From the NCBI GenBank assembly GCA_002692535.1, contig NZKO01000022.1:11797-45503 (forward strand): a DNA stretch of 33,707 nt. The letters are read 5' to 3'. Below, in pieces: positions 9,030 through 33,707 of this stretch (its first letter is position 1; each line of letters opens with the position of its first letter). Source of the stretch: Opitutia bacterium. Lineage in GTDB: Bacteria; Verrucomicrobiota; Verrucomicrobiia; Opitutales; Seribacteraceae. Under the pieces are notes generated by a model. That model worked only from the letters and a program-made list of their open reading frames with translations, was not told the DNA's origin and made no database searches. Position numbers and translations under genes: made by a program.

Positions 9030-9520
9030 TTATGGTTTGTAGACACGTACCCGAAGAAAGCTTTTTCCACCTTTCCTCAAAGCATTTTCAGTCGAGAATG
9101 TGACCCTTTCCATACCCCCTCCCAAATCTACTGTCTTGGTCGTTTCCAATACCACATTCATTCCTGACCAGGTTCTCAAATTCGAACTTCCTTCAACTTT
9201 ATACCGGAAATCCTCACCAGTTGTTTGAATTGAATTTTTATACCTAATGAACGAAATCCTCTGCTTACCATCTGTACCATCCATTAACTTATTTGGCAAA
9301 TGCTGTGGGTTGTCTGGACCAAGCGAATCCAGTCCCATGGCTCTTTCGAATAAATTCGAATAACCATCACCATCAGAATCTGCATAATCCTCATCAAAAG
9401 TCCGCAAGGATTCAGGATAAGACTTGTTTGCATCACGTGCAGTCAATCTTGAAGCAAAGCGGTCCTGAATTCTTGCATAACGGACATCTTGCTTTCGATA
9501 CTCGATCCATGCACTTCTAG
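9030..9520 (-). other. C-terminal calcium-loop and beta domain of the giant protein
   Basis: The last 160 or so residues leave the LamG/Ig theme. A Tyr/Arg-rich helix-like segment is followed by DYADSDGDGYSNLFERAMG, a TSP3- or dockerin-like calcium loop. Then comes a terminal beta domain (DFRYKVEGSSNLRTWSG, FLRVRVYKP at the very end) of a kind often found at the C-terminus of large Verrucomicrobiota exported proteins. No membrane anchor or sortase motif, so it may be a secretion or attachment domain (inference). Confidence 0.62.
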
Positions 9521-12500
9521 TTGGAGCTACTACCTTTAGTCTCTTAAGATGTTTTTCTGAAGCAACGTAATATGCGTTTTCCGGAACAATAAAACTTAGT
9601 GAAACTTCTCCCTCACTGAGAGGAATGATCTTATTGCCCTTATGAATACGAACAATCGAAGAGTTCGAACTGGTAATCTCATAGGGATAACCAATGCTCG
9701 TTGATCGAATACCCTGAAGGGTTAAAGCTCGATGTCCGTATGGGACCGGATTCAAACTTCCTTCCAAGGCATCATCAGGAAAAATGATCAATGGTCTTTG
9801 TTTTGATGAGACCTCAAATGTTCGAGTTACAGGAACTGCAGGGTTAAAATAGGCTGAACCACCTTGAGCCACAGTTATGCTTACCGTGCCCACCAGTCCC
9901 TCCAGACTGACAATTCCGAATGAATTTACCGTAGCTGGTCCGAAATCAACTTGAAATTCAAGCGGAAGACCCGAAGTTGCAGAGGCATTCAATTCAAAGG
10001 GTTCATCATCTCTAACCTTGATATCAATTTCATCAAAAACGATCAATTGATCGTCCTTCACGACCGGATAAATAACCTTAAGCTCTTGATGCTGAGGCAA
10101 TGCAGGATGATAACGGGTATCTCCCATTTGAATGGCAGAAATCGTTACCTCCCCAACTCCATTCAAGTAGGCAAGGTTACCCACAATTGTCAATATCGAG
10201 GAATCACTGGATACGAAACTTACAGGCAATCCAGATGTGGCATATGCAACAAGCTCGAAAGCGGGATCTCCCAATGCTCTATCAGGCAGTTTATGCTTTG
10301 TCGTATTGTCCTCAACATAGGAAATTAGACCACCCCATACGATTTCCTGATCACCCCCAAAAGCAGGAGGTTCAGCAGAATATGGATGCAAATGAGGCAA
10401 ATCCTCATTGAATCCCCACTTGTGCGCCAAGTAGCCTTCGATCTTTTGACGGTTAATGGAATTTATGTCATCTTCAAAGATCAGAGCCTCTGCGATTTCA
10501 CCATTGAAGTTCTCTCCAACGTGATCAATGGCAAGAACTCCGTCTGCGTAAGCATCCGCTCCAATTATTTGTCCATTGATCCATAAAGATTGTGAATTAG
10601 GTGCAACTCTAAGAGAACTTATGCTCCATTCCGAGCTATTTGACTCCGAAACAATGGCAACATTGCCATTCCCATGCTCTAGCGACAAATAACCATCGGT
10701 GCTTGATGTTCTTAGGTCGCCACCAAGTATATTTGAAGGATTGCTGTCTTCATGACGATGAACAATAAAGATAAAATTAGGAGATGTTACCTCGTTTTGG
10801 ATATCAAAGATTTGATTAAAATCAGAATCAAATTGCAGAGTTGCCTTCTTATTCAAAGAAAAAGGCGTCCAAGTGGGCATCTTGAGAATATTAGCCTGTA
10901 CGGGATTATTCGTATTTCCCGATTTATCCGCCCAGATACTTACTCGATTACCGCTTATGAAATCATCCGATGTATCTGGCAATCCATCTCCATTAACATC
11001 CGTTGCATCAAACCAAAGTTTGAGTCCCGGGGTGGAATCGGCGAACAAATTGCCCCACCTAATGGTAAAGGACTGTGATTGATCAGATGCGGGTTCATAT
11101 CTGCGATCCCCGGCCTGCATTGCAGAGATCGTCACTTCACCTGCAGCTTGAAGATAGATGTAGTCACCAACTACGGTTGCTAGCGCGGGATCAGAAGAAT
11201 AAAAGATAACCGGTAATCCAGAACTTGCATTTGCTTCAAGCCTGTATGGGAAATCCCCAACTGATTGATCTGGTATAGGTAAAAAATCAATCAACTGAGG
11301 AACACGAACGACAGTAATGTAGTTATGGACGGGGATGGCGGTTTCAAAGTCAGAATTGCCCATCTGTTGAGCGGTGATACGAGTTGTTCCTGCACCCAAT
11401 AGTTTCAGGCGGTCAAAGTCTCCTCCACCATTACCATAAATCGTAGAAATTTCCAAAGGAGTCAGGCAATCGCTGTAAATTCTCAAATCATCAAACAATG
11501 CATCAATTGGAAGAGAACCACCTCCAAGAGTAAGAGTGGAAAAACGGGATGATATCTCGGCTCCGGTAAAGTGGTGCCCGGAACTTTGCCCCAAGAGCAA
11601 ACCATCAGCATAAATGGACAGGCTTCCATTAACATCTTCATAGGTAATACTCAAATGAGTCCAAACTTCATCAGTCAAAACTTCAGAATCCGTAGAAAGA
11701 ATGAGTTCCTCAGAAAGCCCATCCAAATATAGAAAAACCTTTACGGTTCCGTTGTTGTCATTTTTTTCAATCTTAAAAATGTCCATACCCGGCAGCCCGT
11801 CCTTAGCAATCATTCTAGTACCATTGGAGTCCGTGTTGCTTGGACTTATCCAAAAACTCAGCGTGAAATTGGATTCCATTTCGAAAGTGCCGAAGTCAAT
11901 CCTTCCCTCAGAGGTTCCCATTTTCACTCCATTCCCAAAGTACGCTTTTTCCCACACAGCCTGGCTTCCTGTGGTTTCAAGTCCAACAAGCGTACCATTG
12001 TAACTACCGGTTTCGTCTTTCGCTCCAGCGTACATCGATTCATCAAACTTCCAATAGCCGGAAAGCACATCTTCCCTAGTCACTAAAATCTGGGCAACGC
12101 TCTCGTCCAGAACGGAATAGGTAATGGGAAGATGGGTAAGGTTGCCATCCATTCCCTGGGAAAATCCAGTGAGTGGTACAAAAGGTTCAGTTGCACGTAC
12201 ATTTGTTAGGTTCTGGTCGAAAATGATTTCCTGTTCCAACTTCGGAGACACAGTTAAGATTCCATTTTGATGCGCAAAAAAGTACTTGCTCGAAAACTCC
12301 GCAGTCGAATTTATTTCATAGAGTCCCAAAGGGGTGGGGTGAGTAAGGTTTCCGTCTTGAACAGGTGGAATAATCGAGATGTTCAAGTCATACACGTCAT
12401 CATTACTAACCAAGCCAAATAAATCGTAAGTAAATGGGGGGTTTGCTCGTTCTGGTTTTCTGAATTGGTCATTTGTTTTGATGATGAGCTCCTTAGGCAT

Positions 12501-15500
12501 AATCTGAAAATTCAGCAGAAGAGATTGAGCAGCCAACCAATTTTGATCGCCATCTTGGAATGCTCTCAGTTGAACGAAACCGGAATCCTTGATACTCAAT
12601 CGAGTGCCATTCAAATCAACCGACTGATTACCTTCCAATATTTCAAGTGATACGGGTAACCCTGAAGTGGAACTGAGATTAAGATCCAATGGATCATCGC
12701 CATAGAACAACAAATCTTCATTTATTCCCGATAGAATGCTCTGTCGTCCCTTTAGGACCACTAGACTTGGATCCGAAAATTCTATGCTATCTGAACCAGA
12801 TTGATTGGATGCAGTTACAACAAGTACAAAATCTCCGGTTTCATTAGCCTCACCATAAATCAATCCATTGCTTTGATCGATCATAAGTCCATTGGGCAAA
12901 CCGGTAACGTTAAATTCCGTGGGCCCTTTTAGAGTTTCAATCTGATATGAATACTCATCCCCAAAATACGCAATAAGCGGTGGGTCAACAAAGTTGTATA
13001 CTGATTCCCTCTGCGCTGAGGTCAAAGTCTGATCGTAGATTCGAAGGTCATCGATCACACCCTCAAACGGACCGTCACCCAGAAACCTTCTTCCCCCAAT
13101 GGTCAGCGTAGGGTCTCCGGTAAGGTTGCCCGATGCGTTTACCGGTGTAACGATCTGCTCATTATTTCGATACAATGACAGTTTGTTCCCGTTCCAAGAG
13201 AAAATGAGGTGGATCCACTGATCAATGGGCATAGGGAAAGGTTCCGTGGATCGGAGTTGTGAGCCAATATTGGCATGAGCGGTAAGGAAACCATCGGACA
13301 AAAGGATTGAGAACTGACCACTATTCAAAATTTCAGCACTTGAATCATTGGTTTTCATCCAAAAGCAAATACTGAAGGGTCCCCTAATGTCGAAGGTATC
13401 GTCGTCATTTGTCAGACGAATGGTCTGATTGCCATCAAAACGAAGAGCCGTACCCTCCTTACCTAATTCGGAAAAATCAAACGAATCTGATACAAAACTG
13501 GCATTATCATCCCATAAACCATGGTTATCATTGCCTGAGTCATCCCTTATTTGAGTCCCATTAAGCTCATTGAAAGTCCAAAAGACGATGGGGTTGCGTG
13601 GAGGAAGGATAACTGGGACATTATCGAATGATGGTGGATAATCACTATACGGATGAACTCCAAAATCGCCATCACCATTACCGTAAAGGACGGAAACCTC
13701 ATATGCTGAAAAACTTCGATCATAGACTCTAAAATCATCCAACTTGGAAGAGAACTTACTGTTCCCATAAGCATTTCCTACGGTTTCAATTTCAAGCAAC
13801 ATATGATCATTGACCGAACCGACCATTGAACCATCGACATAAAAACGAGTTATACCGACTTGACTACTGACAGCCAAATGGTGCCACCCCGAAGTTAACG
13901 AATTGACATCGAATGAAGTTAAATTGTCTGCCCCATCATAAATACCGATAAGCTTTCTCGTCGGGAACGAAGATTCCTTTTTCATGTAAATTTGACCGGG
14001 GTCTCCATAAGTTAAGACATGCCGGAAGAAAACACCGTCATTAATAATCGGTGTCTCAAACCAAGTGGACACAGTCCAAGATGCACTGCTGATATCAAGC
14101 TCATTCTGCATGAGATCTAATCTTGCAGTCCAAGGATCGATTGATTCAAACTCAATCCCTGATCCAAATTTCCCCAAAACATTAAGGTCTGCATCCCTCA
14201 CCTCCGCATGCCTCATCTCGGTTGAGAAATCTTGGGCAACCGAGCCATCCGTCTCATCAAACGGATAGTACAACTTCAATCCACGGGTCAGTTTGAAACC
14301 GGTTTGTCCCAAATCATCAACGATTCCCCATTTGTGAGCAAGATATCCCTCAATCATTTGTCTTTCCGCCTTTGGAAGCATTCTATCAAAGACCATGATC
14401 TCGGCGATTTCTCCAACAAGCATTCCATATCCAGTCATAGGGTCAAAACCCAGACTTATTTGTTGTAGAGTATTGCTTTCACTCTGAAAAGCACCGAATC
14501 TGTTACCGGTTTTGGCATCTAAAGTCCAACCTGTCGCTCCATCAGTTGCACCGATGCCTACACCACTCCCTTTTGAAACCATAAATACATGCACTCCTCC
14601 ACTTGAGATAGCGAGGGATCCGACATTGTAAGCATCACCAGAAGAAAATCGGATGGACGGGAGACCATCAAAAGAAGTTCTCATGTATGAGGGTACTCGC
14701 TGTGACACAATTTGAAAGGCATGTTTCTCGGACAAGGACTTATCAATCCACACCGGCATGGGAGAGGCATCAAGAAAATCGTCAAATTTTCCATTACCGT
14801 CGATATCTTGGCCATCCAACCAAAGTACCATGCCGTCAATAGTATACTTGGTAAAGGTGGTATCAAATGCGATAAAGGATTCGGTATTTGGTGACCACTG
14901 CTCACCGCCAAGATTCTCAGCATGTGCCCGGTAAAAATATTCAGTATCCTGAAGCAATCCATCCACTTCTGCATGAAACCTTCCTAGACCTACGGGCTGA
15001 CTACCATTAATCTCAAAAACATAATCCCATTTGGTGGCATCTGCAGGATCCACATCCGTCGAATTCTCATCTATTTTTTCGTCACCCCAAAAGATTTTCA
15101 CAACTGGTTTGTCGCCGCCAATTAAAAGTTTTTTCTGTTGATCGATCGATCCTCCGAAAGGATCCACGTCAAAATATGGATGATTCGTGGATAGTATTTC
15201 TTTATTTAGCTCCCATTTATGGCAAACATATCCCTCCAACTGGAGTAATTCCATATCATTCAATTCTCGGTCGTAAATAATGATTTCAGCAATTTCACAG
15301 GTAGACATTTCTCGGTTGGTGTACCACCCACCAATCTGAAGGACCCCGGGATCAAATGCATTGTTATTTGAACCGCGAGATCCAGATGTGAGAATCTCAC
15401 CATCCCTTCGAAACGTTGCAGCTGGATCTCCTCCTTTCGCTTCAATTTTGCCTACATGAAGATGCCAATTCGTATCGGAAGGTCCTGCTGTTGAAATCCA

Positions 15501-27500: not shown

Positions 27501-30500
27501 CTGATCCGAGGCAAAGCTGTTAACGCTGAAGTTTGCGTCCATCAACTGATCCATTCGCACAAGCATTGGAAAGTCATGCAAAGTTTCGGTCCCGGTATAT
27601 CCGGACAAACTCATTTCAATGGAGTGACTGAATGAGTCTACCTCGGAAATCTTAAGGGAAACAATTTGCTGACTGTCACCAAAACTATTGGAAGCGGTAA
27701 CGGTTATTTGGTAGGAACCACCCTGCAAGGGAACACCACTAATTTCGCCAGTGGTCGAATTCAGATCAATTCCAGCAGGCAATCCAACTGCTGAAAAGGA
27801 ATCTGCAGAGGGGAATACGGAGATAAGATAGGAAAAGGGCTTCGCTGGATCGTTCGCATAGCCTTGACCAACCTGATCGGCGATAATAACGGGTGGACCT
27901 TCCACAGTTGAAAAAGAGAGGAAATCGGATACGGGATCAGGCCGTTGGCTTTTGTAAGAGGCCAGTATTGATTCCGGCGACTCCATAAAAAGACCGATTC
28001 TAAATTCATCAACAAAACCGTTCCACCATAAACCTCCAAGCCTGCCAGACCCCAAACGAAAACTTTCCACAGGTCCACCAATAGGACGGGTATCATTAAA
28101 TCCCTCATTAAAAAGCTCGCCATTTTTGTAAACTCTCATGATTCCGAGCTCGACATCCTTTTGGAGCGTCCAATAGATCCAGGCACCCAAATAGTTCGAG
28201 TCCTCCTTATCCAGTCGATCGTATTGATTATTCATCCCGGCATCCCAATAAAATCTAGAATTTGACCATGGAAAATGGACGTTTAAGTGCCTGCCCAAAG
28301 CAGAACCTGATTCAAAGAGGGTTGAGTTTTTAAGACTGGCGAAATTCCCGTAAGTCCAGAATGAAATAGTCAATTGCTCACTACCTGTGGGGGGATGAGA
28401 ATCGAGGGGCAGCTCCAAGTAGTCGTTTTCACCGTCAAAAACAACTGCGTTTCCTACTACACCTTTTGTTCTCACTTCGTCCATATTATGGGGAGTGGCA
28501 TGGAAACTACCACGCGAGTCACGAAACAATGAGGGATCATCTCCATCCATGTGCCATACGGCTCTGTATTTTTGCCAGACAGTACCGTCCCGACTGTAGG
28601 AAGGTTGCTCCTTGTAGTTGGGATTACCCCAGATTGCACGAATGGAGGTGTTTTTATCCAACTTTTCCAATAACACCCAGAAAGAAGACTTGCCTTGAGG
28701 GTTCCAAGTTATGGTTTCGTAGGGCAGTTCACGAACACCGTCGGAAGATAAGAATCTCAAATCATGCCCAAAAGCCGATGAGAATTGCTCGTAACTGAAT
28801 CCAGAAATCGATGTGTCAAGTTCGATGTAAACGGGAAAATTCTCAATGATCTTGTTTTCCGCATAACCTGGAAAATCAACTTCTACGCCATAAATCCAAG
28901 GACGGTAGTCTTTTACATCAAAAACCACATTTTGCTCAAGGGAACCAGCAGAGTTTGATGCTTCAAACCTTGAATAGTAAGTACCCATTGCATTAGGATT
29001 TCCTGATAGAATTGCAGTAGTAGGATCAAATGTCACTCCCGGTGGGAGATTATAGGCCAAGATTTGATCAAACGGTCGATTTGTGGGCAGGGTAACCGCT
29101 AAACTTTGCTCAAACAAAAGAGAATAGGGCGATTCGATAAGTAACTCGGGGCGGTTTTCAAAAATGGGTCTTTTGGATTTGTAGGGATGGGCTCCTGGCA
29201 TGGCGTCGGTCAATGCCCATTTGTGGGCAAGATAACCTTGTATCCTGTCAACGTCTTCATCACTAAGAGCAACGTCATAGATAATGATTTCTGCTATTTC
29301 CACATTGGAGTGAGAAACAATTGATCCATTTTGACTTCTGGCAGCTATGACGAGGTCGTCATCAGGTGCTGGAGTAATAGATCCGGTGTCCAAAACCTGA
29401 AATTCCAAATTACCGTCCGCCCACTGTGCCTTTCTGACTTCGGACTTTCGCATGGCCCAAACATGGGGTTCTCCGTTAAGGGGAGTTCCTCCCGAACGAT
29501 TACTCCAATCGGATGTTCCCGTAACCGTAAACGCTGCGAAATCGGTATTGACCCTCCTGAACTGCCAACCCATTTCATTCTCTCCCCGTTTGGAAAGAAC
29601 CGGTCGCCAATTGCCCGTGTTATGTCCCTGGGCAACAATGAAAATTGTTCCTTCTTCTCCGATATCAAAAGCATCGGAATCTTCAACACGAAGGTATTGA
29701 CCATTGCCATCAAACTTAAGGGTTGTCAGACCGTTCCAACGGTTGACCTGCAGACTGGGACCATTTCCGTTTCCTGCATTCCGCGAATTCCCTGATTTGT
29801 CTCGCCAAAAGTCGACTCTGCCCCCAAAGGGTTCATTACTTGGATCACCATCTGCATCAATGTCAGATGCATCCAACCAAAGCAGCATTTCACCAGCTTC
29901 GACAGAATTTTTTCCAAAATTGAAATCACCAGTTGAAAAAGTTGAAACCTCTGACCAAACTTTACCTGCTGAATTCTCCGCAAGAATTCGAAAATGAAAA
30001 ACTTTCCCGGATTGAAGCCCATCCAGCGAATACTCAAATCCACCGATTGGCTTAACACCCAAATCTATTGAGGCATCCCAGCCTGTTGAAGAGGCATCAA
30101 TATTGGTTACCTTACCCGCATCCTCATCTCCCCAAAAGATTGTAACAACTGGATCTTCACCTCCGAGAACTAAGGTCTCCTCAAGATCCCCGGAATAAAT
30201 AATTTCAACTTCATCCTTTGTCAGAGCACGGTCATATACACGCATATCGTCAATCATTCCCAGAAAGTACTGATCATTCCCCCAGTTACTCCTTCCAATG
30301 TATTGTTGCGTACGTGTAACAGACTGTGGAAGATGACCCAAAACTGCACCCTTAAGTTGTCCATTGCGGTAGATTTTCATCAATCCGGAATCATCAACAG
30401 TTGCCACAACATGTTGCCATTCGTTTAGTGTCCAGAAATCCTGAACGATCAATTGCCGACTATTACCTCCACGGCGAATGCTCCATTCCACTTCGTTGGA

Positions 30501-33500
30501 TGTACCACGATTTGCAACAAGTAGATTGTGGTTGTTTGCTCCATTTGCAAAATCGAACATTCTTTGCCAATTCCCAAGGTTCTCCTTATATGCCCAGGCG
30601 GAAAAACTTGTCGCACCCTCAATCCTAAAGGCGCCCACTTCAACGTAAGCCTGATTGCCACCGTCAAACTTTAACGCCGTACCATATTGACCCCCCATAC
30701 CCTGATGCCATGTGGCTCCACCATAGACTTGGGCCACAGAAGAAAATCCAGTTGAATCGTAAGCCTCGGAACCAAGAGCTTCGTCAAACTTCCAGTGAGC
30801 GATCAAGTCTTTGGAAACCAATGGTGTACCTAGACGAACTACGACAGTCTCTCCACCATTATTTGTGATTTCACCGCGCAAAACTGCAGAGTTTGTAGTT
30901 TGATTCACGGCATTGGCTGGATTCATGGAAGGCGTGGAAACAGTCCTAAACTGACCACTGGAATCAGACCAATCAGAGAACGAAGAGCCTTTTGCCTGGA
31001 CCTGATAATAAATGGTTTCACCGGTCTCAAATCCACCCACTTGAAGACTACCAAAGCCTGCAGACTGAATTCCAACACTCAGTGAATGATCCCACAAACC
31101 GGAATTTTCACCGTGGTCGAAGGATCCCCAATAAAGAATAATTTCCGGTTCTGGACCATCATAGGAGACCAGCTCATAGGAAAGAGTTGCATTTGTATCT
31201 GTAATACCTGTTGCGGGTCTTGTTACAACGATGGGAGGAACCGCCTGATTGCCGGTTGTAAAGCTACGAACAGCACCGGCTCCAGCAAGTAATTTAATCT
31301 CAGATGAATCGAGATCATCATAAAACAACTGAACACGATGCATCTCCCCTGTAAAATCTCCCCACCGCTGGCCAGTTGGACGGGCAACACCAATGGAAAG
31401 TGGAGAAGACCCACTGCTTTCTAGCCTACCGTTGTATTGAGTCCATGTATTGATCTTGGCGCCGTCTAGGTAAACAGTCATCTCAGAACCATACACCAGG
31501 GCCAAATGATACCATATTCCATTGCTTATTCCGGCTTCAACACGAACGGTCTGGTCAGTTGCAGCCGTTCCCGAATCAACATAAATTTCAATCTGAGATC
31601 CTTGGGTTCCAATTTCGAAATTATCATTACTGCGAGCGCTCGATTGTGCAACCAAGACATTGTCTATGCCATGATTGGTTGGCCGAACAGAGCTATCCGA
31701 GCTACGCTTGAACCACAGTGATAGTGTGAATCTGTCAATCTGATCCATTTCATCGATGTCACCAAGGTTCACATAATCGTTGTCTCCATCAAAATGTAGA
31801 ACCTGTCCTTTTTCGGAATCCGTTGCCGACACAGCTCCAGTAATGCTTCCGTTAATTCCGCCAACCTGATCCAACGCAACAGATCCCGTGTCATTGAGCT
31901 CCCAAAAATGCAATGGAATGGCAGAAATGGAATCACCATTTGAAACACCAGCGGTGTTTTCCAGTTTGGTTTGGTAATAGTAGGTCGTGGAAGAATTCAA
32001 GCCGGTCAAAAGTATCGATTCGCTCCCAATGTCTGTCACCACTAACTTGTTGGTCTCAGACGAAGCCAAAAGGGATGGATCAGTACCCCAGTAAAAGGAA
32101 AGGTTACTGTCCATACCGCCCAAATCGAAAATTTTCGACTGTAATCTGGCGGATGTGGAGCCCACTTGGGTAGCTTCTTCAGTCTGTGCACGGGGTGGAG
32201 TTGCCAAGATTTCCAAGTTAAAAGTATCGGAAACATTTCCCCATTGATTTGTAGCTGTAACTGCAACCTCATAATTACCTGCACTTTCCGGCGTTCCGCT
32301 TATGACAAATCCAGGCTCTCCCAATGGCTTGCTGTTTTTGTAAGGGTGCACATCAGACAACTCTTCGTTTAAGTTCCACTTATTTGCCAAATAACCCTCA
32401 ACCTTCTGCTTCTCAGACAGATCAAGAGTTCTCGGATAGAATAAGATTTCACCAACCATCAACTCGGTATCGCCATTGATACGATCAAAGATGGCTTCAG
32501 GTCTCCAATTGCCACTGACATTTGTCGTAATCACATCACCATTTGCTCGAATCTCATAACCATATCTTGAAACAGTCCATGCGATCAGGGATTTCATTTG
32601 AGAGGAAACATTAGTGTTCAATGAAGGATTATTGTCGTTCCATCTTTGCAAACCCCATCTTCCGCTACTGATCATTCTCCAACCTTCAAAGGTAAACAGC
32701 TCTCGATCGGGGAACGATAAACCTGTCTCATACCCAACAAGAAAAAGGGTCATGGGCATACTTACCCCATCAGGAAGTCTCAATGACTTACCGTAATTCA
32801 GATGGACCATTTTCATACCTGTGTTTGGATCAAAAGATAGAAGGGGTCCATTTTCATACTCACTCTCTGCATCTCTTTGATTTACGGAAAGGTCTCTCCA
32901 AAGCCTAATCCTTTCAGGATCATACTGATTTCTGACTGTTGCGTCAAAATCACCAAACCCTGAATTGTAAAGATCAGCTACCTGAGAGGAATTAACTTCC
33001 ACATCATAAATACGAAAATCATCGATGGAACCATTAAAGTCTCCCCACTGATCTGAGAATATCCTACCCATGCCCAATGAAAGCGGAGAATCTCGTGAGG
33101 AATCTAGCGGTCCGTCATAGGGCGTTCTCGACAGTCTTTGAACTCCATCAACAAATACTTTCAGTCCGTTACCGTAAGTGAGCACAAGATGATGCCAAAC
33201 ACCGTCTGAAATATTTGCTCCATTCGTTGCATAACGAGAATCCTGATTACCGCCTCCGGAGTCCAGATATACTTCGATTTCGCTTCCTTCACTACCTATT
33301 TCAATGTTGTCGTTGTCGTAGGAACTTGATTGAGCAAGCATAAGGTTGTCAATCTGATGATTAGTTGGAATGCCAGGAACCTGATTATGCCTTTTGAACC
33401 AAAAGGAGATTGAGAAAAATTCTGGACGGTCCATGTAGGAAACTTTTTCAAAAACCATTCCATCATTGCTTCCGTCAAAAGATACCGAACCACCTTTCTT

Positions 33501-33707
33501 GCCATCTGTCCATTGGGCCTGGTCTATGAGTCGGCCATGATTTCCATTTCCCGAAATATCATAGGCGGTGGATCCATTTGTCTCATCGAAAGGAAGGTGT
33601 AGCACAAGATTGTCAACTGCAACGGAATCATTTCTTTCGTATATTCTCTGCTCATGCATAACGAAACTTTCATTACCATCTGCAGAATACCACGCGAACA
33701 GCCCGGG
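9030..33707 (-). CDS. Giant modular surface/secreted protein (LamG, FN3, PA14, DUF2341, Gly-rich), N-terminus off window
   Basis: One open frame of at least 8,225 codons with no stop from the right edge to TAA at 9030-9032. The ATG at 33659 is not the start: 16 in-frame codons precede it to the edge, and they encode the first strand of a LamG domain (GLFAWYSADG). The signal peptide must lie outside. Domains seen: 20 LamG/ConA-like modules of two types. Type I looks like YWxFDE...DDLRIYD (12 copies); type II looks like LWLDASD...DKSG...EGYLAHKWG...HPY (8 copies). There are also FN3-like modules with the YWG-x-x-DGG motif, He_PIG, DUF2341, PA14-like and F5/8C-like modules, a Gly-rich triplicate, an MBG and Ig-like string, and a C-terminal DSDGDG loop plus SSNLRTW domain. 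Many modules sit inside others. I count about 15 Cys in all. No catalytic signature was seen; probable adhesin or matrix protein. Presumably exported, by inference. Confidence 0.95.
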   Translation of the reverse strand, partial: PGLFAWYSADGNESFVMHEQRIYERNDSVAVDNLVLHLPFDETNGSTAYDISGNGNHGRLIDQAQWTDGKKGGSVSFDGSNDGMVFEKVSYMDRPEFFSISFWFKRHNQVPGIPTNHQIDNLMLAQSSSYDNDNIEIGSEGSEIEVYLDSGGGNQDSRYATNGANISDGVWHHLVLTYGNGLKVFVDGVQRLSRTPYDGPLDSSRDSPLSLGMGRIFSDQWGDFNGSIDDFRIYDVEVNSSQVADLYNSGFGDFDATVRNQYDPERIRLWRDLSVNQRDAESEYENGPLLSFDPNTGMKMVHLNYGKSLRLPDGVSMPMTLFLVGYETGLSFPDRELFTFEGWRMISSGRWGLQRWNDNNPSLNTNVSSQMKSLIAWTVSRYGYEIRANGDVITTNVSGNWRPEAIFDRINGDTELMVGEILFYPRTLDLSEKQKVEGYLANKWNLNEELSDVHPYKNSKPLGEPGFVISGTPESAGNYEVAVTATNQWGNVSDTFNLEILATPPRAQTEEATQVGSTSARLQSKIFDLGGMDSNLSFYWGTDPSLLASSETNKLVVTDIGSESILLTGLNSSTTYYYQTKLENTAGVSNGDSISAIPLHFWELNDTGSVALDQVGGINGSITGAVSATDSEKGQVLHFDGDNDYVNLGDIDEMDQIDRFTLSLWFKRSSDSSVRPTNHGIDNVLVAQSSARSNDNFEIGTQGSQIEIYVDSGTAATDQTVRVEAGISNGIWYHLALVYGSEMTVYLDGAKINTWTQYNGRLESSGSSPLSIGVARPTGQRWGDFTGEMHRVQLFYDDLDSSEIKLLAGAGAVRSFTTGNQAVPPIVVTRPATGITDTNATLSYELVSYDGPEPEIILYWGSFDHGENSGLWDHSLSVGIQSAGFGSLQVGGFETGETIYYQVQAKGSSFSDWSDSSGQFRTVSTPSMNPANAVNQTTNSAVLRGEITNNGGETVVVRLGTPLVSKDLIAHWKFDEALGSEAYDSTGFSSVAQVYGGATWHQGMGGQYGTALKFDGGNQAYVEVGAFRIEGATSFSAWAYKENLGNWQRMFDFANGANNHNLLVANRGTSNEVEWSIRRGGNSRQLIVQDFWTLNEWQHVVATVDDSGLMKIYRNGQLKGAVLGHLPQSVTRTQQYIGRSNWGNDQYFLGMIDDMRVYDRALTKDEVEIIYSGDLEETLVLGGEDPVVTIFWGDEDAGKVTNIDASSTGWDASIDLGVKPIGGFEYSLDGLQSGKVFHFRILAENSAGKVWSEVSTFSTGDFNFGKNSVEAGEMLLWLDASDIDADGDPSNEPFGGRVDFWRDKSGNSRNAGNGNGPSLQVNRWNGLTTLKFDGNGQYLRVEDSDAFDIGEEGTIFIVAQGHNTGNWRPVLSKRGENEMGWQFRRVNTDFAAFTVTGTSDWSNRSGGTPLNGEPHVWAMRKSEVRKAQWADGNLEFQVLDTGSITPAPDDDLVIAARSQNGSIVSHSNVEIAEIIIYDVALSDEDVDRIQGYLAHKWALTDAMPGAHPYKSKRPIFENRPELLIESPYSLLFEQSLAVTLPTNRPFDQILAYNLPPGVTFDPTTAILSGNPNAMGTYYSRFEASNSAGSLEQNVVFDVKDYRPWIYGVEVDFPGYAENKIIENFPVYIELDTSISGFSYEQFSSAFGHDLRFLSSDGVRELPYETITWNPQGKSSFWVLLEKLDKNTSIRAIWGNPNYKEQPSYSRDGTVWQKYRAVWHMDGDDPSLFRDSRGSFHATPHNMDEVRTKGVVGNAVVFDGENDYLELPLDSHPPTGSEQLTISFWTYGNFASLKNSTLFESGSALGRHLNVHFPWSNSRFYWDAGMNNQYDRLDKEDSNYLGAWIYWTLQKDVELGIMRVYKNGELFNEGFNDTRPIGGPVESFRLGSGRLGGLWWNGFVDEFRIGLFMESPESILASYKSQRPDPVSDFLSFSTVEGPPVIIADQVGQGYANDPAKPFSYLISVFPSADSFSAVGLPAGIDLNSTTGEISGVPLQGGSYQITVTASNSFGDSQQIVSLKISEVDSFSHSIEMSLSGYTGTETLHDFPMLVRMDQLMDANFSVNSFASDQCNDLRFYDETGRDLPYEIETIDFEQNTVIVWVRVAELNSDKSIFAYWGNPQLADTTPLSSTDGSTWSAGYRGVWHLYPMDITDILTDSSSYRNHATNVGGVTARNGKFGSGRSLYGGSDQFIKIPKSFSLNDLGRESFSFSIWANLENQPDSEVIDSFYAQGYEQVPNDRFFNDINQLIDLRPSGARLYKDGPRQGLYLSGDTDFRDANIGINRNDNYMTLFMSMFHPPETGSYRFRCTDKDDRATIWLDLDRDGVFELNGNEGPEMIGGINNFTSGFIPLDHTNGPYKIAIAHGEWGGGSRLRPWIMIPGDETWHIIDPSDPTQSGFWRVPFDSSITNDLSAYSFFNHGISSALNLQNGNFGFAHPLASSGLLFESSVGLINDQWYHLHKQIDQENGVAKLFVNGSEAISGVFDPSQSIESDIESDWLVGTGTISSILDEIRISSRVRSDDWIIASYQNQMENPLFPTYPGKLDGPPSFLTTHDFTIFAETEFTHFAKATGSPTAYVASGLPSGILLNPTDGNLSGSPTYSGTYEPMLRAIYDDGSQSLQPYQIEVLTSPPEISLSPPQSAGASFLEIPFEVLATGGEDPTVWVLADTIDHGTDLYKWKYRFDLGEKGLGSNSQTVGELAPDQFYYIRLYAFNSAGFDWTGKQFFTRTQPEKSNLPNGLAMWFDATDISGTGDSADAGTEISTWVDKSGYSRHMDIKEGDPTLILEGYKGLPVVDFDGNDQLVSSYDFTTDDLQLWRGGGYTAFGVSRYTGGRNNRVISSRGHNWFMGHHGNRNGRFFMNGWVHRGHSSDTDFHIWTMKQEGRDLSGNPVSVVYADGVELANNQNSNNWNFYPGQLSFGAWGNLQEASRCQVAEFIIFNGLMADDGRQLVDGYLAHKWGIDLPSNHPWASERPTFGEAIVEGTTAVGLTVATEVPVVRNRDPSNLKNNSAVLTGQLVDAGLGMIPTDTGNNDFTPMDYSGLRLWLDVSDADGDGIRGSDYDDAVVTDPVSWNPGFLSPAVWLDASELTSADSTWANKGTNTNDATRHGSPNVVQNAQNGLSVMRYSGANGQYHSFANLSNIRTVFWVWKHTGGYYFMLGDNNQHHFHKGPLMFDSGWTSPNIQNGLFRTNGNTIEVHDADYPSSLSILSLRTSGNVEASNFSNDRNIGGRTANGDLGELLVFTSPLSDGEIEKVEGYLAHKWALTGELPMDHPFKSDFNETHTFGFPLHTLIDKSGQGNHATQEVNASQPEFVKNALGNNDMPVLRFDGTGDYLEFDEISTIRTVFLVLNRSPANQGFILGHPTLHAFHSGASTVWNPEWTDPFVSNGELRVNGDKLDGFITNYDSSEYVILGLRTKGFVAASNFSRDRSSNKFWHGGLAEVLVYNEPLPISVMRKMEGYLAHKWGMVSSLSMSHPYVKSAPKRSVSSAHAKIYWGGTDGGNNAGLWENVIDMSEVFVGLRRLERDVSVIATPAPNNAGGTFPAQKLIDLDLPNDGWRSTWTAWYKQNPELTFNLGGTREMNNIRIYHQPFERPDSLMEVEVWIADEEFNFQFHGIFPGEIGFTEQGRFTDIDMNGVVTQAIRLLPRYRGWGHQLGEVEFWVYSNGDFGAQVDGLGRGQTYFYRSFVSNSGGSAWAPTTKEFKAGDRIRYEKGKLIIHTDLGTWEHSNGDLRNGTITERSFTDPLGNNYSYKVCSFVFDQVELLGEVEVIVKGENSLEIISRSADFVIGTTIDVSGVTGSAEGGGEAGPGGWAGGDLDGKGRGPGGGLPGISPGGGGYGGAGSRATFSSGLPYGDGMISNLIGGSGGGGYNGLSGGGGGGGAVRLVSGGKILVDALIRSGGGSGFNNSAGGSGGAIHLKGDEILLTNKSFLDVSGGTNGGAGGRIFMESNASITNLGESNLLVTGGGGDAEGTLGTIRVKTPSLLSGLDLVNGILTIDTDSAKLIHNGKNIAVGIIEDKYYRDNEGALWPFSVCRFTFDRIRLGGNLVINLTGKNALMLEANAGNILLGSNLYANGGNSRDDAPGVGRLGGYDGVGSGNLLGNGPGAPAESSAQGNGAAYGGHGSGGAETYGDAALNFLLGGSSGGSGQEGSGAGGGALFLKASGEITVQENVIISANGGNGGSDSASGSGGAVRLEAIRIFNYGRIEARAGSGVTVSGNAQTRGSSGGRVALIANGDIHAGQIDVSGEWLSNEGSVFLGGEHLNTVLSVQDKLLTIDTKTGYFSVEGGAHGTGEFTSLTYVDNMGQSWPYEVCTFKFGNIDIGGASRVLLRGDKSLVLETVAGGNVYLGVDFVMDGGDADTETGYGGKPVLNPWRGRSSEKFSGFGPGGPTPAGNWGIGANYEYGDPRIIDLLAGSSGSSGRLFQGSGAGGGALAIHADGNLTIADGIFISANGGNGRADGIYDHGGGGSGGAIRLVAKNIFNKGLVSVEGGNRGASGGRIVMAASGIIDRGVVLVGDGSFQEIRPPKISLPRKLHLSYLKVNDLQFRQTVLTRPQNLRAYWPMDEGSGVVTSDVVAGYNGALVGDATWQSGRFGKSIRFDGTTGFVSTMLTGEDLGIDGKKSRTISFWTYVEDGNPRSEPGFYGYGERACPGENRYWAIRNIKDGGYTQFLSQHWCWDPRVYHNNDLRNRWSHFAHLFNGSQVMVYVDGSLVANWTRGEISTGNADSLQFGRWRNDGNAYFQGSLDDFRVYDAALGGNDILQIFEGKDISEKVIEHQFNITATENPTRFEVEGLPAGLILNELTGEVTGLPNEVGVFDLNISAFNSAGRGIEQIQVIVNKTAPVTYSVSPRFVTSSSAEMSANIASNGGESLTMSLFWGSTDGGINESIDSNDSSLWDYRVDLNGSYSTGTVSHLVDGLDMNGTYFYRWMASNSVNPNAWSEASDTGMLAWWSFDEIDQTFSMDRVGNRKASFVGISESDRVFGRNGNGLRFGGAGEHLVCRNFKGIPADKPRSLSIWVNTSENEGSILSWGDNGNGNLWELEIIDGKFGLRVGGGRLEGIQSVNDGSWHQLAVVFPSAAQVLNDVILFVDGDVYSRNIYGNPTINTGEDFDMLIGTNSGGNNFTGIIDELRIYERDLSQNEIKSIFLDGTMVFSTLSVASPPIVELTEVEAQANSSVVIHGELVSVDLTNPTVRIYYGLQDGGFSASDWNNSFVEVNGGSEVGIGDFNATITGLTPGERYHFRAFAESDDGFDWSSGTPAIRNQLIGYWRMDESNGSYVADSIAPFNDASLVGFDPLDNRSQGVMGKSISFNGFSTLLDLDANGTGFLEKSFDGRSVSMWLKTDGGFYTGPRVVGHSSIVGYYPFDDQSGTDVPDLSASELTGKLVNGANLQTGNNGQAVHLDGNNDRVSIPTNGPMASLNQKSHTISMWINPGIESSGTYTEGRLFAHGFLRSIDNTYYTNIESMLGLTPSGSNFLTNGPGGRGLDFNNDSDYRNAGIGINRNDQYLSLFNGVFYAPQTGSYAWEIRGNDDRGTIWLDLDQDGVFEQSGDKGNEQLLYQPNCCGTQSTLIDLQTGYYRIAIAHGEGGGGSNQEAYFSTPGGGPTSLSIIKPSDYPTLFLTHNEKTVMSRGPLRLVLDGNNNLVYTHADQLGSAKVSSNLGLSSNNWSHLALSIDYNSSKLSLYLNGQKRGETDVTSGSQLEISSSVPWNIGGSSAIWQDHFNGKVDDLRFYNSSLSESEILEIYNDDLTNVELAANKKQIIYDEGTDESGLSIAIDQDGYVVARLVEGGSMSTLSSESPIRDNQWHHLVVTFGDLPKIMKMYLDDSLQGNPVVHSSSFISTHLEKPSLGGLTGTSSFPSYGSFLGNVDELRIYDRGLTNVEVSEVYNGDYTNNGSLDFLAIRKASVFAVSAVDVMPTQATMRVDVESIGGEVQVVDESLDLSFKTSTFDTMQAWFSSYNLSTEVQNGGQISFWTDLSGSGKHFENSSGDPSVKHDGIKGKPVIALDGDDLLWTSADFDFLTESGYTILTLARYSGSKINRVISSRNRNYLFGFQNGLTGRWYAEGWISTAGPSDTNWHLHVGKIEAKGGDPAATFRRDGEILTSGSRGSNNNAFDPGVLQIGGWYTNREMSTCEIAEIIIYDRELNDMELLQLEGYVCHKWELNKEILSTNHPYFDVDPFGGSIDQQKKLLIGGDKPVVKIFWGDEKIDENSTDVDPADATKWDYVFEINGSQPVGLGRFHAEVDGLLQDTEYFYRAHAENLGGEQWSPNTESFIAFDTTFTKYTIDGMVLWLDGQDIDGNGKFDDFLDASPMPVWIDKSLSEKHAFQIVSQRVPSYMRTSFDGLPSIRFSSGDAYNVGSLAISSGGVHVFMVSKGSGVGIGATDGATGWTLDAKTGNRFGAFQSESNTLQQISLGFDPMTGYGMLVGEIAEIMVFDRMLPKAERQMIEGYLAHKWGIVDDLGQTGFKLTRGLKLYYPFDETDGSVAQDFSTEMRHAEVRDADLNVLGKFGSGIEFESIDPWTARLDLMQNELDISSASWTVSTWFETPIINDGVFFRHVLTYGDPGQIYMKKESSFPTRKLIGIYDGADNLTSFDVNSLTSGWHHLAVSSQVGITRFYVDGSMVGSVNDHMLLEIETVGNAYGNSKFSSKLDDFRVYDRSFSAYEVSVLYGNGDGDFGVHPYSDYPPSFDNVPVILPPRNPIVFWTFNELNGTQIRDDSGNDNHGLWDDNASFVSDSFDFSELGKEGTALRFDGNQTIRLTNDDDTFDIRGPFSICFWMKTNDSSAEILNSGQFSILLSDGFLTAHANIGSQLRSTEPFPMPIDQWIHLIFSWNGNKLSLYRNNEQIVTPVNASGNLTGDPTLTIGGRRFLGDGPFEGVIDDLRIYDQTLTSAQRESVYNFVDPPLIAYFGDEYSYQIETLKGPTEFNVTGLPNGLMIDQSNGLIYGEANETGDFVLVVTASNQSGSDSIEFSDPSLVVLKGRQSILSGINEDLLFYGDDPLDLNLSSTSGLPVSLEILEGNQSVDLNGTRLSIKDSGFVQLRAFQDGDQNWLAAQSLLLNFQIMPKELIIKTNDQFRKPERANPPFTYDLFGLVSNDDVYDLNISIIPPVQDGNLTHPTPLGLYEINSTAEFSSKYFFAHQNGILTVSPKLEQEIIFDQNLTNVRATEPFVPLTGFSQGMDGNLTHLPITYSVLDESVAQILVTREDVLSGYWKFDESMYAGAKDETGSYNGTLVGLETTGSQAVWEKAYFGNGVKMGTSEGRIDFGTFEMESNFTLSFWISPSNTDSNGTRMIAKDGLPGMDIFKIEKNDNNGTVKVFLYLDGLSEELILSTDSEVLTDEVWTHLSITYEDVNGSLSIYADGLLLGQSSGHHFTGAEISSRFSTLTLGGGSLPIDALFDDLRIYSDCLTPLEISTIYGNGGGDFDRLKLLGAGTTRITAQQMGNSDFETAIPVHNYITVVRVPQLIDFLPIPDQSVGDFPYRLEANASSGLPVIFYSSDPALATVVGDYIYLQAAGEVTISAMQAGDRRYEPASDQSQSFTIRWGNLFADSTPGLKLWFDATDVNGDGLPDTSDDFISGNRVSIWADKSGNTNNPVQANILKMPTWTPFSLNKKATLQFDSDFNQIFDIQNEVTSPNFIFIVHRHEDSNPSNILGGDLRTSSTDGYLSLEHGNGNVAIVSESNSSEWSISSLRVAPNSQSLWINGQIIGADAYADGVLAIDHVGENFNGEIAEALIFEDDINSINRQKIEGYLAHKWGFNEDLPHLHPYSAEPPAFGGDQEIVWGGLISYVEDNTTKHKLPDRALGDPAFELVAYATSGLPVSFVSSDSSILTIVGNLAYLNGVGEVTISAIQMGDTRYHPALPQHQELKVIYPVVKDDQLIVFDEIDIKVRDDEPFELNASATSGLPLEFQVDFGPATVNSFGIVSLEGLVGTVSITVAQGGSAYFNPAVPVTRTFEVSSKQRPLIIFPDDALEGSLNPVPYGHRALTLQGIRSTSIGYPYEITSSNSSIVRIHKGNKIIPLSEGEVSLSFIVPENAYYVASEKHLKRLKVVAPTRSAWIEYRKQDVRYARIQDRFASRLTARDANKSYPESLRTFDEDYADSDGDGYSNLFERAMGLDSLGPDNPQHLPNKLMDGTDGKQRISFIRYKNSIQTTGEDFRYKVEGSSNLRTWSGMNVVLETTKTVDLGGGMERVTFSTENALRKGGKSFLRVRVYKP
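9521..12756 (-). other. Ig-like/MBG string with two LamG modules
   Basis: An Ig-like repeat (TSGLPVSLEILEGN) is followed by an MBG/YDG-type module (ELIIKTNDQFRKPE, NGILTVSPKL). Four more repeats of the form SSGLPVxFxSSD...GEVTISAxQxGDxxYxPA follow, then a divergent last one. The first of these four (LPITYSVLDESVAQI) is interrupted at about 12080-11418 by a type I LamG (SGYWKFDESMY to IYGNGGGDF) and resumes LKLLGAGTTRITAQQMG. A type II LamG (LKLWFDATDVNGDG, 11036-10345) sits between two repeats. Confidence 0.7.
12757..13594 (-). other. Type I LamG and He_PIG
   Basis: An uninterrupted type I LamG (IVFWTFNELNG, IRDDSGNDNHG, FSICFWMKTND, GVIDDLRIYDQTL) is followed by a He_PIG (NVTGLPNGLMIDQSNGLIYG, LVVTASNQSGSDS). 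Confidence 0.7.
13595..14844 (-). other. Type I LamG inserted in the tail of a type II LamG
   Basis: The type II LamG (MVLWLDGQDIDGNGK, VWIDKSLSEKHAFQ) reaches IEGYLAHKWGIVDDLG. At 14311 a whole type I LamG (LKLYYPFDETDGS to LYGNGDGDFG) intervenes. At about 13661 the tail resumes VHPYSDYPPSF. In other copies the KWG and HPY motifs are only some 8-10 residues apart. Confidence 0.72.
14845..15974 (-). other. FN3-like module hosting a type II LamG
   Basis: The host opens TQATMRVDVESIGGEVQVV. It is interrupted at about 15880-15133 by a type II LamG (MQAWFSSYN, SFWTDLSGSGKHFE, LEGYVCHKWEL, HPYFDVDP), then resumes LIGGDKPVVKIFWGDEK through EYFYRAHAENLGGEQWSP. The Cys in YVCHKW replaces the Ala found in the same motif of most other copies. 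Confidence 0.7.
15975..18212 (-). other. Four-level nest: FN3-like > LamG > LamG > PA14-like
   Basis: The FN3-like host (IYYGLQDGG, ERYHFRAFAESDDGFDWSSG) is interrupted at about 17915 by LamG-1 (IGYWRMDESNGS). LamG-1 is cut after GGFYTG at about 17650 by LamG-2 (VGYYPFDDQSG). LamG-2 is cut after RLFAHGF at about 17350 by a PA14-like module (GIGINRNDQY, GTIWLDLDQDGVFE, YRIAIAHGEGGGGS) up to about 16846. LamG-2 resumes LTHNEKTVMSRGPL and ends at about 16428. LamG-1 resumes KQIIYDEGTDESGLSI and ends NGSLDF at about 16005. The FN3 tail is ASVFAVSAVDVMP. Confidence 0.72.
18213..20119 (-). other. LamG, He_PIG, and FN3-like module hosting a LamG
   Basis: A type I LamG (LRAYWPMDEGSG, about 20030-19410) is followed by a He_PIG (EVEGLPAGLILNELTGEVTG) and an FN3-like module (SSAEMSANIASNGGESLTM, LFWGSTDGGIN, TYFYRWMASN). 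The last is interrupted after AWSEASD by a type I LamG (18868-18246, LAWWSFDE to SIFLDGTM) and closes VFSTLSVASPP. Confidence 0.7.
20120..20916 (-). repeat. Glycine-rich repeat C
   Basis: Third copy. It opens KLLTIDTKTGYFSVEGG, has the Cys motif YEVCTFKFGNIDIGG, then GGNVYLGVDFVMDGGD, GSGAGGGALAIHADG, FISANGGNG, SGGAIRLVA and SGGRIVMAASG. Copies B and C share GSGAGGGAL and ISANGGNG, so they look closer to each other than to A. Confidence 0.72.
20917..21767 (-). repeat. Glycine-rich repeat B
   Basis: Second copy. It opens GILTIDTDSAKLIHNG, has the Cys motif FSVCRFTFDRIRLGGNLVI, then NAGNILLGSNLYANGGN and Gly-rich strands ending SGGAVRLEA, NYGRIEARAG and SGGRVALIA. It aligns with A and C by eye over its whole length. 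Confidence 0.72.
21768..22605 (-). repeat. Glycine-rich repeat A
   Basis: First of three paralogous blocks of about 265-283 residues. It opens KLIIHTDLGTWEHSNGD, has the single conserved Cys in YKVCSFVFDQVEL, then runs into a Gly-rich tract with many GGG/GGGG runs (PGGGGYGGAGS, GGSGGGGYNGLSGGGGGGG), SGGAIHLKG and GGAGGRIFM. Most Gly-rich and lowest-complexity of the three. Confidence 0.72.
22590..24769 (-). other. FN3-like module hosting a double LamG and a discoidin-like domain
   Basis: The FN3-like host opens with NSAVLTGQLVDAGLG (about 24690). Guest 1 is a type II LamG (LRLWLDVSDADGDG). It is itself interrupted at 24492-23878 by another type II LamG (AVWLDASEL to HPFKSD) and resumes at LIDKSGQGNHATQ. 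The host continues KIYWGGTDGGNNAGLWENVI. Guest 2, about 23150-22712, resembles F5/8C (ATPAPNNAGG, ELTFNLGGTREMNNIRIYH, GHQLGEVEFWV). The host closes NGDFGAQVDGLGRGQTYFYR and SNSGGSAWAP. Confidence 0.7.
24770..26067 (-). other. He_PIG, FN3-like and type II LamG in tandem
   Basis: He_PIG (VASGLPSGILLNPTDGNLSG) is followed by an FN3-like module (GGEDPTVWVLADTIDHG, FYYIRLYAFNSAGFDWTG) and an uninterrupted type II LamG (LAMWFDATDISGTGD, STWVDKSGYSRHMD, VDGYLAHKWGI, HPWASERP). This is one of the few stretches in plain tandem order. Confidence 0.68.
26068..28893 (-). other. Two DUF2341-LamG pairs; the second LamG contains a PA14-like guest
   Basis: The first DUF2341 (28893-28540: FPVYIELDTSISGFSYEQF, HDLRFLSSDGVRELPYE, IRAIWGNP) leads into a LamG (YRAVWHMDGDD) and a He_PIG. 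The second DUF2341 (27640-27270: DFPMLVRMDQ, NDLRFYDETGRDLPYE, IFAYWGNP) leads into a LamG (YRGVWHLYPMD) whose middle is interrupted at about 27035-26520 by a PA14-like module (NIGINRNDNY, ATIWLDLDRDGVFE, YKIAIAHGEWGGGS). The LamG resumes at YSFFNHGISSAL and ends at DEIRISSRVRS. Confidence 0.72.
28890..29919 (-). other. Type II LamG followed by He_PIG
   Basis: An uninterrupted type II LamG (LLWLDASDIDADGD, DFWRDKSGNSRNAG, IQGYLAHKWAL, HPYKSKRP) is followed by a He_PIG module (NLPPGVTFDPTTAILSG, GTYYSRFEASNSAG). It serves as a reference for what an uninvaded type II module looks like. Confidence 0.7.
29920..31230 (-). other. Two FN3-like modules, the second hosting a LamG
   Basis: The first FN3-like module (31229-30910) is uninterrupted: LYWGSFDHGENSGLWD, ETIYYQVQAKGSSFSDWSD, GQFRTVS. 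The second starts at NSAVLRGEITNNGGETVVV, is interrupted by a type I LamG (about 30812-30186, LIAHWKFDEALG to IIYSGDLEE), and resumes LGGEDPVVTIFWGDED through FHFRILAENSAG to about 29920. Confidence 0.7.
31231..32325 (-). other. He_PIG half plus FN3-like module carrying a LamG guest
   Basis: A half He_PIG (FVISGTPESAGNYEV, about 32310-32200) is followed by an FN3-like module (SARLQSKIFDLGG, FYWGTD, TTYYYQTKLENTAG). Just before its last strand it is interrupted by a type I LamG (31917-31271, LHFWELNDTG to LLAGAGA). It then closes with VRSFTTGNQAVPP, the usual FN3 end in this protein. Confidence 0.7.
32325..33707 (-). other. Type I LamG nested in type II LamG (giant protein, visible residues 1-461)
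   Basis: The outer type II LamG begins at the window edge (GLFAWYSADG). It is interrupted near 33611 by a full type I LamG (LVLHLPFDETNGS to DLYNSGFGDFD, near 32936). It resumes at RIRLWRDLSVNQRDAE and ends with VEGYLANKWNL and VHPYKNSKP. Uninterrupted type II modules elsewhere (for example at 11036) run straight from LWFDATD to SIWADKSG. Confidence 0.75.

Follow-up and report, generated by a model that had tools for sequence, protein, structure and literature searches.

Does the giant gene in the window, i.e., the whole 33,707-nucleotide stretch of DNA analysed here, encode complete domains that sit inside other, interrupted domains, and are such guest domains still being inserted? In the giant protein and its relatives we have observed split but collinear hosts, the same loops occupied by different guests, and one guest domain in several host folds. 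Overall, the locus is best explained as encoding an adhesin-like secreted giant, in which guests of carbohydrate-binding type (LamG-A, LamG-B, CBM32/F5-8C and PA14-like) probably occupy loops on the surface of FN3, Ig-like and LamG hosts and behave as recombining cassettes. We put the probability of this reading at roughly 0.78.

Split hosts in the giant protein

The frame at 9030..33707 on the minus strand is open for 8,225 aa without a stop. In the source genome (G000) it continues to the end of contig C22, where it has reached 13,434 aa, still free of stops and still short of its start. Since it stays open past the window edge to the contig end, the window covers only the C-terminal part of this giant surface protein. 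At least 5,209 further codons lie beyond position 33707 (L001) before the contig ends, and a few ambiguous bases are present there (X in the translation). The longest orthologues of the same genus have 14,789 and 14,758 aa, and their N-terminus is a hydrophobic, signal-like stretch. Orthologues are present in most genomes of the genus, with 47–65% identity across the C-terminal 1,225 residues, and those members of the group that have names, e.g., TMED56, TMED44, UBA3151 and AG-891-C06, are assemblies of uncultured marine Opitutia/Verrucomicrobia. The source genome is a fragmented MAG of 136 contigs, and all the compared genomes are likewise fragmented MAGs.

Pfam matches in the window frame include Laminin_G_3, He_PIG, DUF2341 and MBG_2, together with weak matches to F5/8C, PA14/GLEYA and fn3. 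In a putative split DUF2341 host outside the window, the Pfam DUF2341 model spans only the post-guest part. In the middle of the protein (window about 22500-20100, minus strand) a glycine-rich repeat unit (…HTDLGTWEHSNG…GGG…) without a Pfam match occurs three times, in a region of raised GC and strong GC skew.

We have found 14 candidate nestings in the window (Table 1), which bears out the estimate of about 14 made in the first-pass annotation of this sequence. The three examples quoted there, a LamG in FN3 (18866-18252), in Ig (12080-11418) and in LamG-B (14306-13662), were also located where it had placed them. For each candidate the guest was excised in silico, the host halves were joined, and the product was scored against 200 shuffled controls. 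The FN3, LamG-A and LamG-B profiles were trained on uninterrupted copies, and trimming at the junction was permitted equally for real and shuffled halves. In this test the rejoined hosts of W1, W3, W4, W5b, W6, W8b, W8c, W10 and W11 score above all 200 shuffles, narrowly so in the case of W11 (35.9 bits vs a shuffled maximum of 35.2), and that of W5 above 199 of the 200. W2 and W9 are weak in the single sequence and above every shuffle when the scores are summed over 7 and 14 orthologues, respectively. The rise in host score that had been proposed as a check on the nestings is thus seen, relative to shuffled controls, for 12 of the 14 candidates, while W7 is borderline and W8a fails. The F-x-T motif behind the W7 guest is retained in 11 of 11 orthologues, and the FN3 of W8a would be the outermost layer of the deepest nest in the window. 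In almost every orthologue, the guests of W3 and W9 are flanked on either side by a short GG(E/D) motif.

Table 1 Nested domains in the window and sites of variable guest content (n/200, shuffled controls not exceeded by the rejoined host)
Feature	Arrangement	Position in window	Strand	Result or distribution
W1	LamG-A guest in LamG-B host	32949..33614	-	Rejoined host 81.9 bits, 0/200; LamG-A HMM 182 bits
Site a	Loop of W1 LamG-A, profile 147-152, guest-free in window	33140..33148	-	NVNG-filled in G008, G012, G007, G014
W2	LamG-A guest preceding last strand of FN3 host	31278..31913	-	367.4 summed over 7 orthologues vs shuffled maximum 360.2
W3	LamG-A guest in FN3, profile columns 26-33	30186..30815	-	0/200; 526.6 vs maximum 470.4 (7 orthologues)
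W4	PA14/GLEYA-like guest in LamG-A	26490..27026	-	30.0 + 22.3 to 58.2 bits, 0/200; PA14 name sub-threshold
W5	LamG-B, itself split, as guest in FN3	23262..24617	-	1/200
W5b (site b)	LamG-B guest in LamG-B host	23877..24485	-	131.3 bits, 0/200; natural empty alleles
W6	F5/8C (CBM32-like), second guest of the FN3 host of W5	22716..23129	-	0/200
W7	LamG-A guest preceding last FN3 strand	18252..18866	-	Borderline, 614.0 vs shuffled maximum 616.0 (11 orthologues)
Site c	Loop of W7 LamG-A, profile 150-161, guest-free in window	18410..18419	-	Filled in sister species
W8a	Complete LamG nest after or within FN3	16017..17915	-	Nesting unsupported, 773 vs shuffled mean 786
W8b	LamG-A guest in LamG-A host	16443..17627	-	45.9 + 68.0 to 123.6 bits, 0/200; Pfam 51.5 to 64.7 bits
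W8c	PA14/GLEYA-like guest in W8b LamG-A	16842..17348	-	55.8 + 78.6 to 138.4 bits, 0/200; rejoined Pfam 87.8 bits
W9	LamG-B guest in FN3, columns 27-31	15147..15860	-	522.2 vs maximum 486.0 (14 orthologues)
W10	LamG-A guest preceding last motif (HPY) of LamG-B host	13662..14306	-	0/200
W11	LamG-A guest in Ig-like (Big-type) host	11418..12080	-	Profile 25-40 then 48-74
Site d	Two LamG-B in Ig-like domain			Filled in G016, G039
Site e	LamG-B in LamG-B in Ig-like domain			G012 only
Site f	LamG-A in LamG-A			In G024, G019; missing from G015 (76-80% identity to G024)
Site g	F5/8C in LamG-A			Absent from G012, G003
Site h	LamG-B in LamG-A			In G000, G002, G006; not in G038 or remaining clades
Site i	Extra guest in PA14-like stretch			Lacking in G015, G024; enlarged in G016

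Several other matches agree with this picture. LamG-A hosts give paired partial matches that divide the profile between them (2-76 then 81-206, and 3-88 then 107-206) and flank complete guests. The Pfam models, which are independent of the profiles built in this analysis, concur for W8b and for the rejoined W8c. The guest of W6 has a sub-threshold Pfam match to F5_F8_type_C and CBM32 matches by Foldseek. Overall, as judged from these sequence comparisons, the nesting of domains in the giant protein is real: at 12 of the 14 candidate sites the host is collinear and the guest complete, i.e., an A1-B-A2 insertion architecture in the ECOD sense, and natural empty alleles exist in addition.

Guest content across the genus

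The orthologues, at 47–65% identity, keep a collinear order for thousands of residues, and the large differences among them are whole guests. The collinearity reaches up to 10,267 aa: this length of G000 aligns with 10,262 aa of G015, and the aligned part is free of gaps of 20 or more. The search for alleles lacking individual guests, also proposed earlier as a check, has revealed nine sites (a–i) at which guest content varies among the orthologues. Three of them (a, b and c) are within the window, and sites d–i are in the N-terminal part of the protein, beyond it. At least 16 changes are required for the nine sites on the species tree, in which G038, G018 and G039 were positioned by identity.

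Site b exists in three states. The LamG-B host is guest-free in G011, G018 and G021; it carries a LamG-B guest in G000, G002, G006, G038, G015 and G024; and in G016 and G039 it carries a different LamG-B guest, which itself holds a further domain, NVNG. The natural empty allele directly confirms the split of W5b. Site c is guest-free in G000, G002, G022, G015, G019, G021 and G024, and is filled by a 201-aa LamG-B in G003, G007, G008 and G012, whereas G011 and G016 have another LamG-B there, about 258 aa long. Sites c, f and h each require a loss plus a gain, and the direction of change there is uncertain. Since sister species have the same hosts in guest-free and guest-bearing form, the nested domains have been repeatedly gained, lost and exchanged.

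The split points of LamG-A hosts are confined to three places of the profile, namely about 10-35 (sites f, g and h), 75-115 (W4, W8b, W8c and, by its C-terminal half, site i) and 147-161 (site a, and site c twice). The guests in these three loops are of the LamG-A, LamG-B, F5/8C, PA14-like and NVNG kinds.

NVNG is a 174-aa domain without a Pfam family, with a weak resemblance to fn3, and no solved structural relative of it was found. We have counted 19 copies in 13 of the 27 genomes of the genus, none of them in G000. Their ends are constant (from SHLTGDxDSGIS to WHLYAFSNRE), and they are flanked by LamG-A, LamG-B, FN3, cadherin or an Ig-like stretch; for the cadherin host, the score rises from 19.4 bits for one half to 33.9 bits when rejoined, which is above the Pfam cut-off. 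The copies cluster by site across species, so every placement predates the species that have it in common. In other members of the class NVNG is an ordinary end-to-end domain, at times just ahead of a PEP-CTERM-like tail, and this supports the view of an independent domain that has turned guest in this genus. We regard it as a candidate new family (L082-L100, e.g., L082:1501-2022).

Age and exchange of the guests

For 13 of the 14 guests in the window, no absence has been seen in any orthologue compared, and the single variable guest is W5b. Judging by this comparison, the guest density in the window is mostly old accumulation rather than recent activity. In addition, most LamG-B positions each form one old orthologous clade. 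One LamG-B subfamily, on the other hand, supplies the guests at site b in the G000 and G015 clades and, in the G008 clade, those of the site-b array and of site c. Some of the guests at sites d and e belong to it as well. In a quick LamG-B tree with some long branches, the site-b guests of the G000 clade cluster with the array of the G008 clade, contrary to the host tree. G007 and G008 show about 89% nucleotide identity. Apart from the start, which is poorly aligned, this value drops (to 55–68%) in two places only, the middle of the site-c guest and the array at site b. This divergence at the variable sites (L038, L052) suggests recent replacement via recombination. No near-identical donors of the recent guests were found, the best matches being the same guests in related species.

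The first-pass annotation had taken the nests as a sign of an active insertion process. At the time scale of species within the genus this stands, as the nine variable sites and the presence of one domain in several host folds support ongoing insertion; it does not stand for the window, where all guests except one are old, and signs of a dedicated mechanism were not seen.

The age of the window guests, together with the single orthologous clade at most LamG-B positions, is what would be expected if the nests were ancient and static, i.e., if a single burst of accretion before the genus had been kept by selection and the few differences among species were deletions. However, gains are needed where a guest is limited to one tip or clade while the other clades are empty (a, d and e), and where differing guests occupy the same loop across clades (b and c), and NVNG occurs in several host folds. 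This explanation is largely refuted at sites a, d and e, and is quite unlikely in general. It is also unlikely that some nests arose by deletion between tandem domains, in which case an intact domain would be left between the first part of one neighbour and the last part of another. The FN3 halves at W3 and W9 do overlap by a few profile columns, both with GG(E/D), as an imperfect fusion would give, but deletion is not expected to produce what is found at the nine variable sites, where natural empty alleles have the host intact and uninterrupted at the same place. As every genome is a fragmented MAG, an assembly artefact or a chimaera of repetitive metagenome contigs has to be considered too. 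Its probability is negligible, given that the same architecture recurs in many independent genomes (including the public assemblies TMED56, TMED44, ARS1007, UBA3151 and AG-891-C06), that thousands of codons are free of stops, and that related species share junctions.

The constant guest ends and the reuse of the same loops might be accounted for by a mobile element, or a targeted process, dedicated to bringing domain cassettes into reading frames. Against this, selection alone, acting through domain ends and tolerated loops, can account for such constancy, and near-identical copies are missing. Target-site duplications and direct or terminal repeats were sought at the guest ends, and at 18 junction pairs the longest shared strings do not exceed what chance would give; these pairs thus lack the marks of a transposon-like insertion. 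Reverse transcriptase (PF00078) was not found in the source genome, which is 88.7% complete, and the gene was accordingly rejected as the target of a diversity-generating retroelement. We therefore hold a dedicated element to be highly improbable. That a specific process, and not chance recombination plus selection, delivers in-frame whole-domain cassettes into defined loops of surface proteins, with NVNG as its most mobile unit, is very unlikely.

In the preferred reading, that of recombining cassettes, guests would be gained and lost as DNA cassettes through ordinary recombination. The cassettes may be exchanged between species as well as among the giant genes, of which the genus has several, and selection for folding and surface exposure would filter the transfers. 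Insertion would be tolerated because the N and C termini of a guest are adjacent and the hosts accept guests in loops.

Structure and known split-domain systems

Two AlphaFold models have mean pLDDT values of 70.9 and 64.1, and at this middling quality they are compatible with nesting rather than decisive for it. In the model of site b, the two LamG-B units are well predicted and the FN3 host poorly. Foldseek searches with these two models returned LNS/LamG lectin folds and CBM32, which are generic lectin-fold matches and no proof of host closure. S. sanguinis PilC (7oa8) is among the matches of the window model; matches to clostridial neurotoxin binding domains were set aside, as they reflect the shared lectin fold only. 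By fold and family resemblance the guests are lectin- and CBM32-like and thus putative ligand binders. Their function would be lectin display, a role that the LamG, CBM32 and PA14-like guests fit.

The earlier statement that such an insertion process was not known as described turned out to be too strong, since split-host RTX adhesins (PMC12077191, PMC10865825) and the nested RpoC2 (PMC13114784) have already been described. In the RTX adhesins A. hydrophila AhLap, V. cholerae FrhA and Marinomonas MpIBP, ligand-binding domains emerge from split hosts, which keep them off the axis of the adhesin, with the N and C termini together on the side close to it (PMC12077191, PMC10865825); as cited in these two papers, Graham et al. 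2024 also deals with split domains of RTX adhesins. In these adhesins ligand-binding domains, CBM and PA14 types among them, bud from an interrupted Ig-like host that resumes afterwards, a layout shared by the giant protein, and the vWFA guest of AhLap carries an insert of its own, as in the recursion seen here. Our protein shares with the split-domain RTX adhesins the guests arising from split Ig-like or similar hosts, the very great length and, in complete orthologues, the signal-like N-terminus. C-terminal RTX repeats and a type I secretion signal were not found: no RTX family is among the Pfam matches of the window frame at E values up to 0.01, and what is conserved at the C-terminus is an F(L/V)R(L/V)R motif. 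In addition, AhLap has three split units near one end, whereas the giant protein has about a dozen in 8,225 aa, uses FN3 and LamG as hosts, and has empty as well as filled alleles in sister species.

About 20% of multidomain proteins show domain insertion, with guests usually smaller than their hosts (median 115 aa vs 199 aa), and in SI3 of cyanobacterial RpoC2 insertion is recursive, with as many as six levels within a single chain (PMC13114784). In RpoC2 the inserts are of a single motif class and the carrier is an essential enzyme, while the giant protein is extracellular and has varied lectin-like guests, which, contrary to the general rule, equal or exceed the FN3 hosts in size. In modular type IV pilins, for example PilB and PilC of S. 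sanguinis, a structural carrier bears an added functional module, and one such module is concanavalin-A-like (PMC8179133, PMC9934059). They resemble the giant protein in that a carrier presents a functional module outside the cell, but each carrier has a single graft attached via a linker instead of many nested guests in one chain.

What is new here is the density of the nests, their recursion, the guests of FN3 size or larger, and the series of empty and filled alleles within one genus, whereas lectin projection by split domains is already known. Inserted domains are common, yet the insertion event is rarely caught, and usually only the finished architecture survives. Since nine loops of one gene family exist in empty, filled and differently filled versions, nature supplies the controls for direct comparisons of insertion tolerance, loop use, gain versus loss and the effect on binding. 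With these observations, the split-domain mode of lectin presentation, known from RTX adhesins, gains a recursive example of very large size in marine Verrucomicrobiota. They also carry a practical warning, namely that ordinary domain searches overlook or halve the hosts in such proteins. Apart from the giant gene, the source genome encodes more long LamG proteins, on contigs C53 (L003), C30, C47, C119 and C135, and one of these frames has 4,314 aa.
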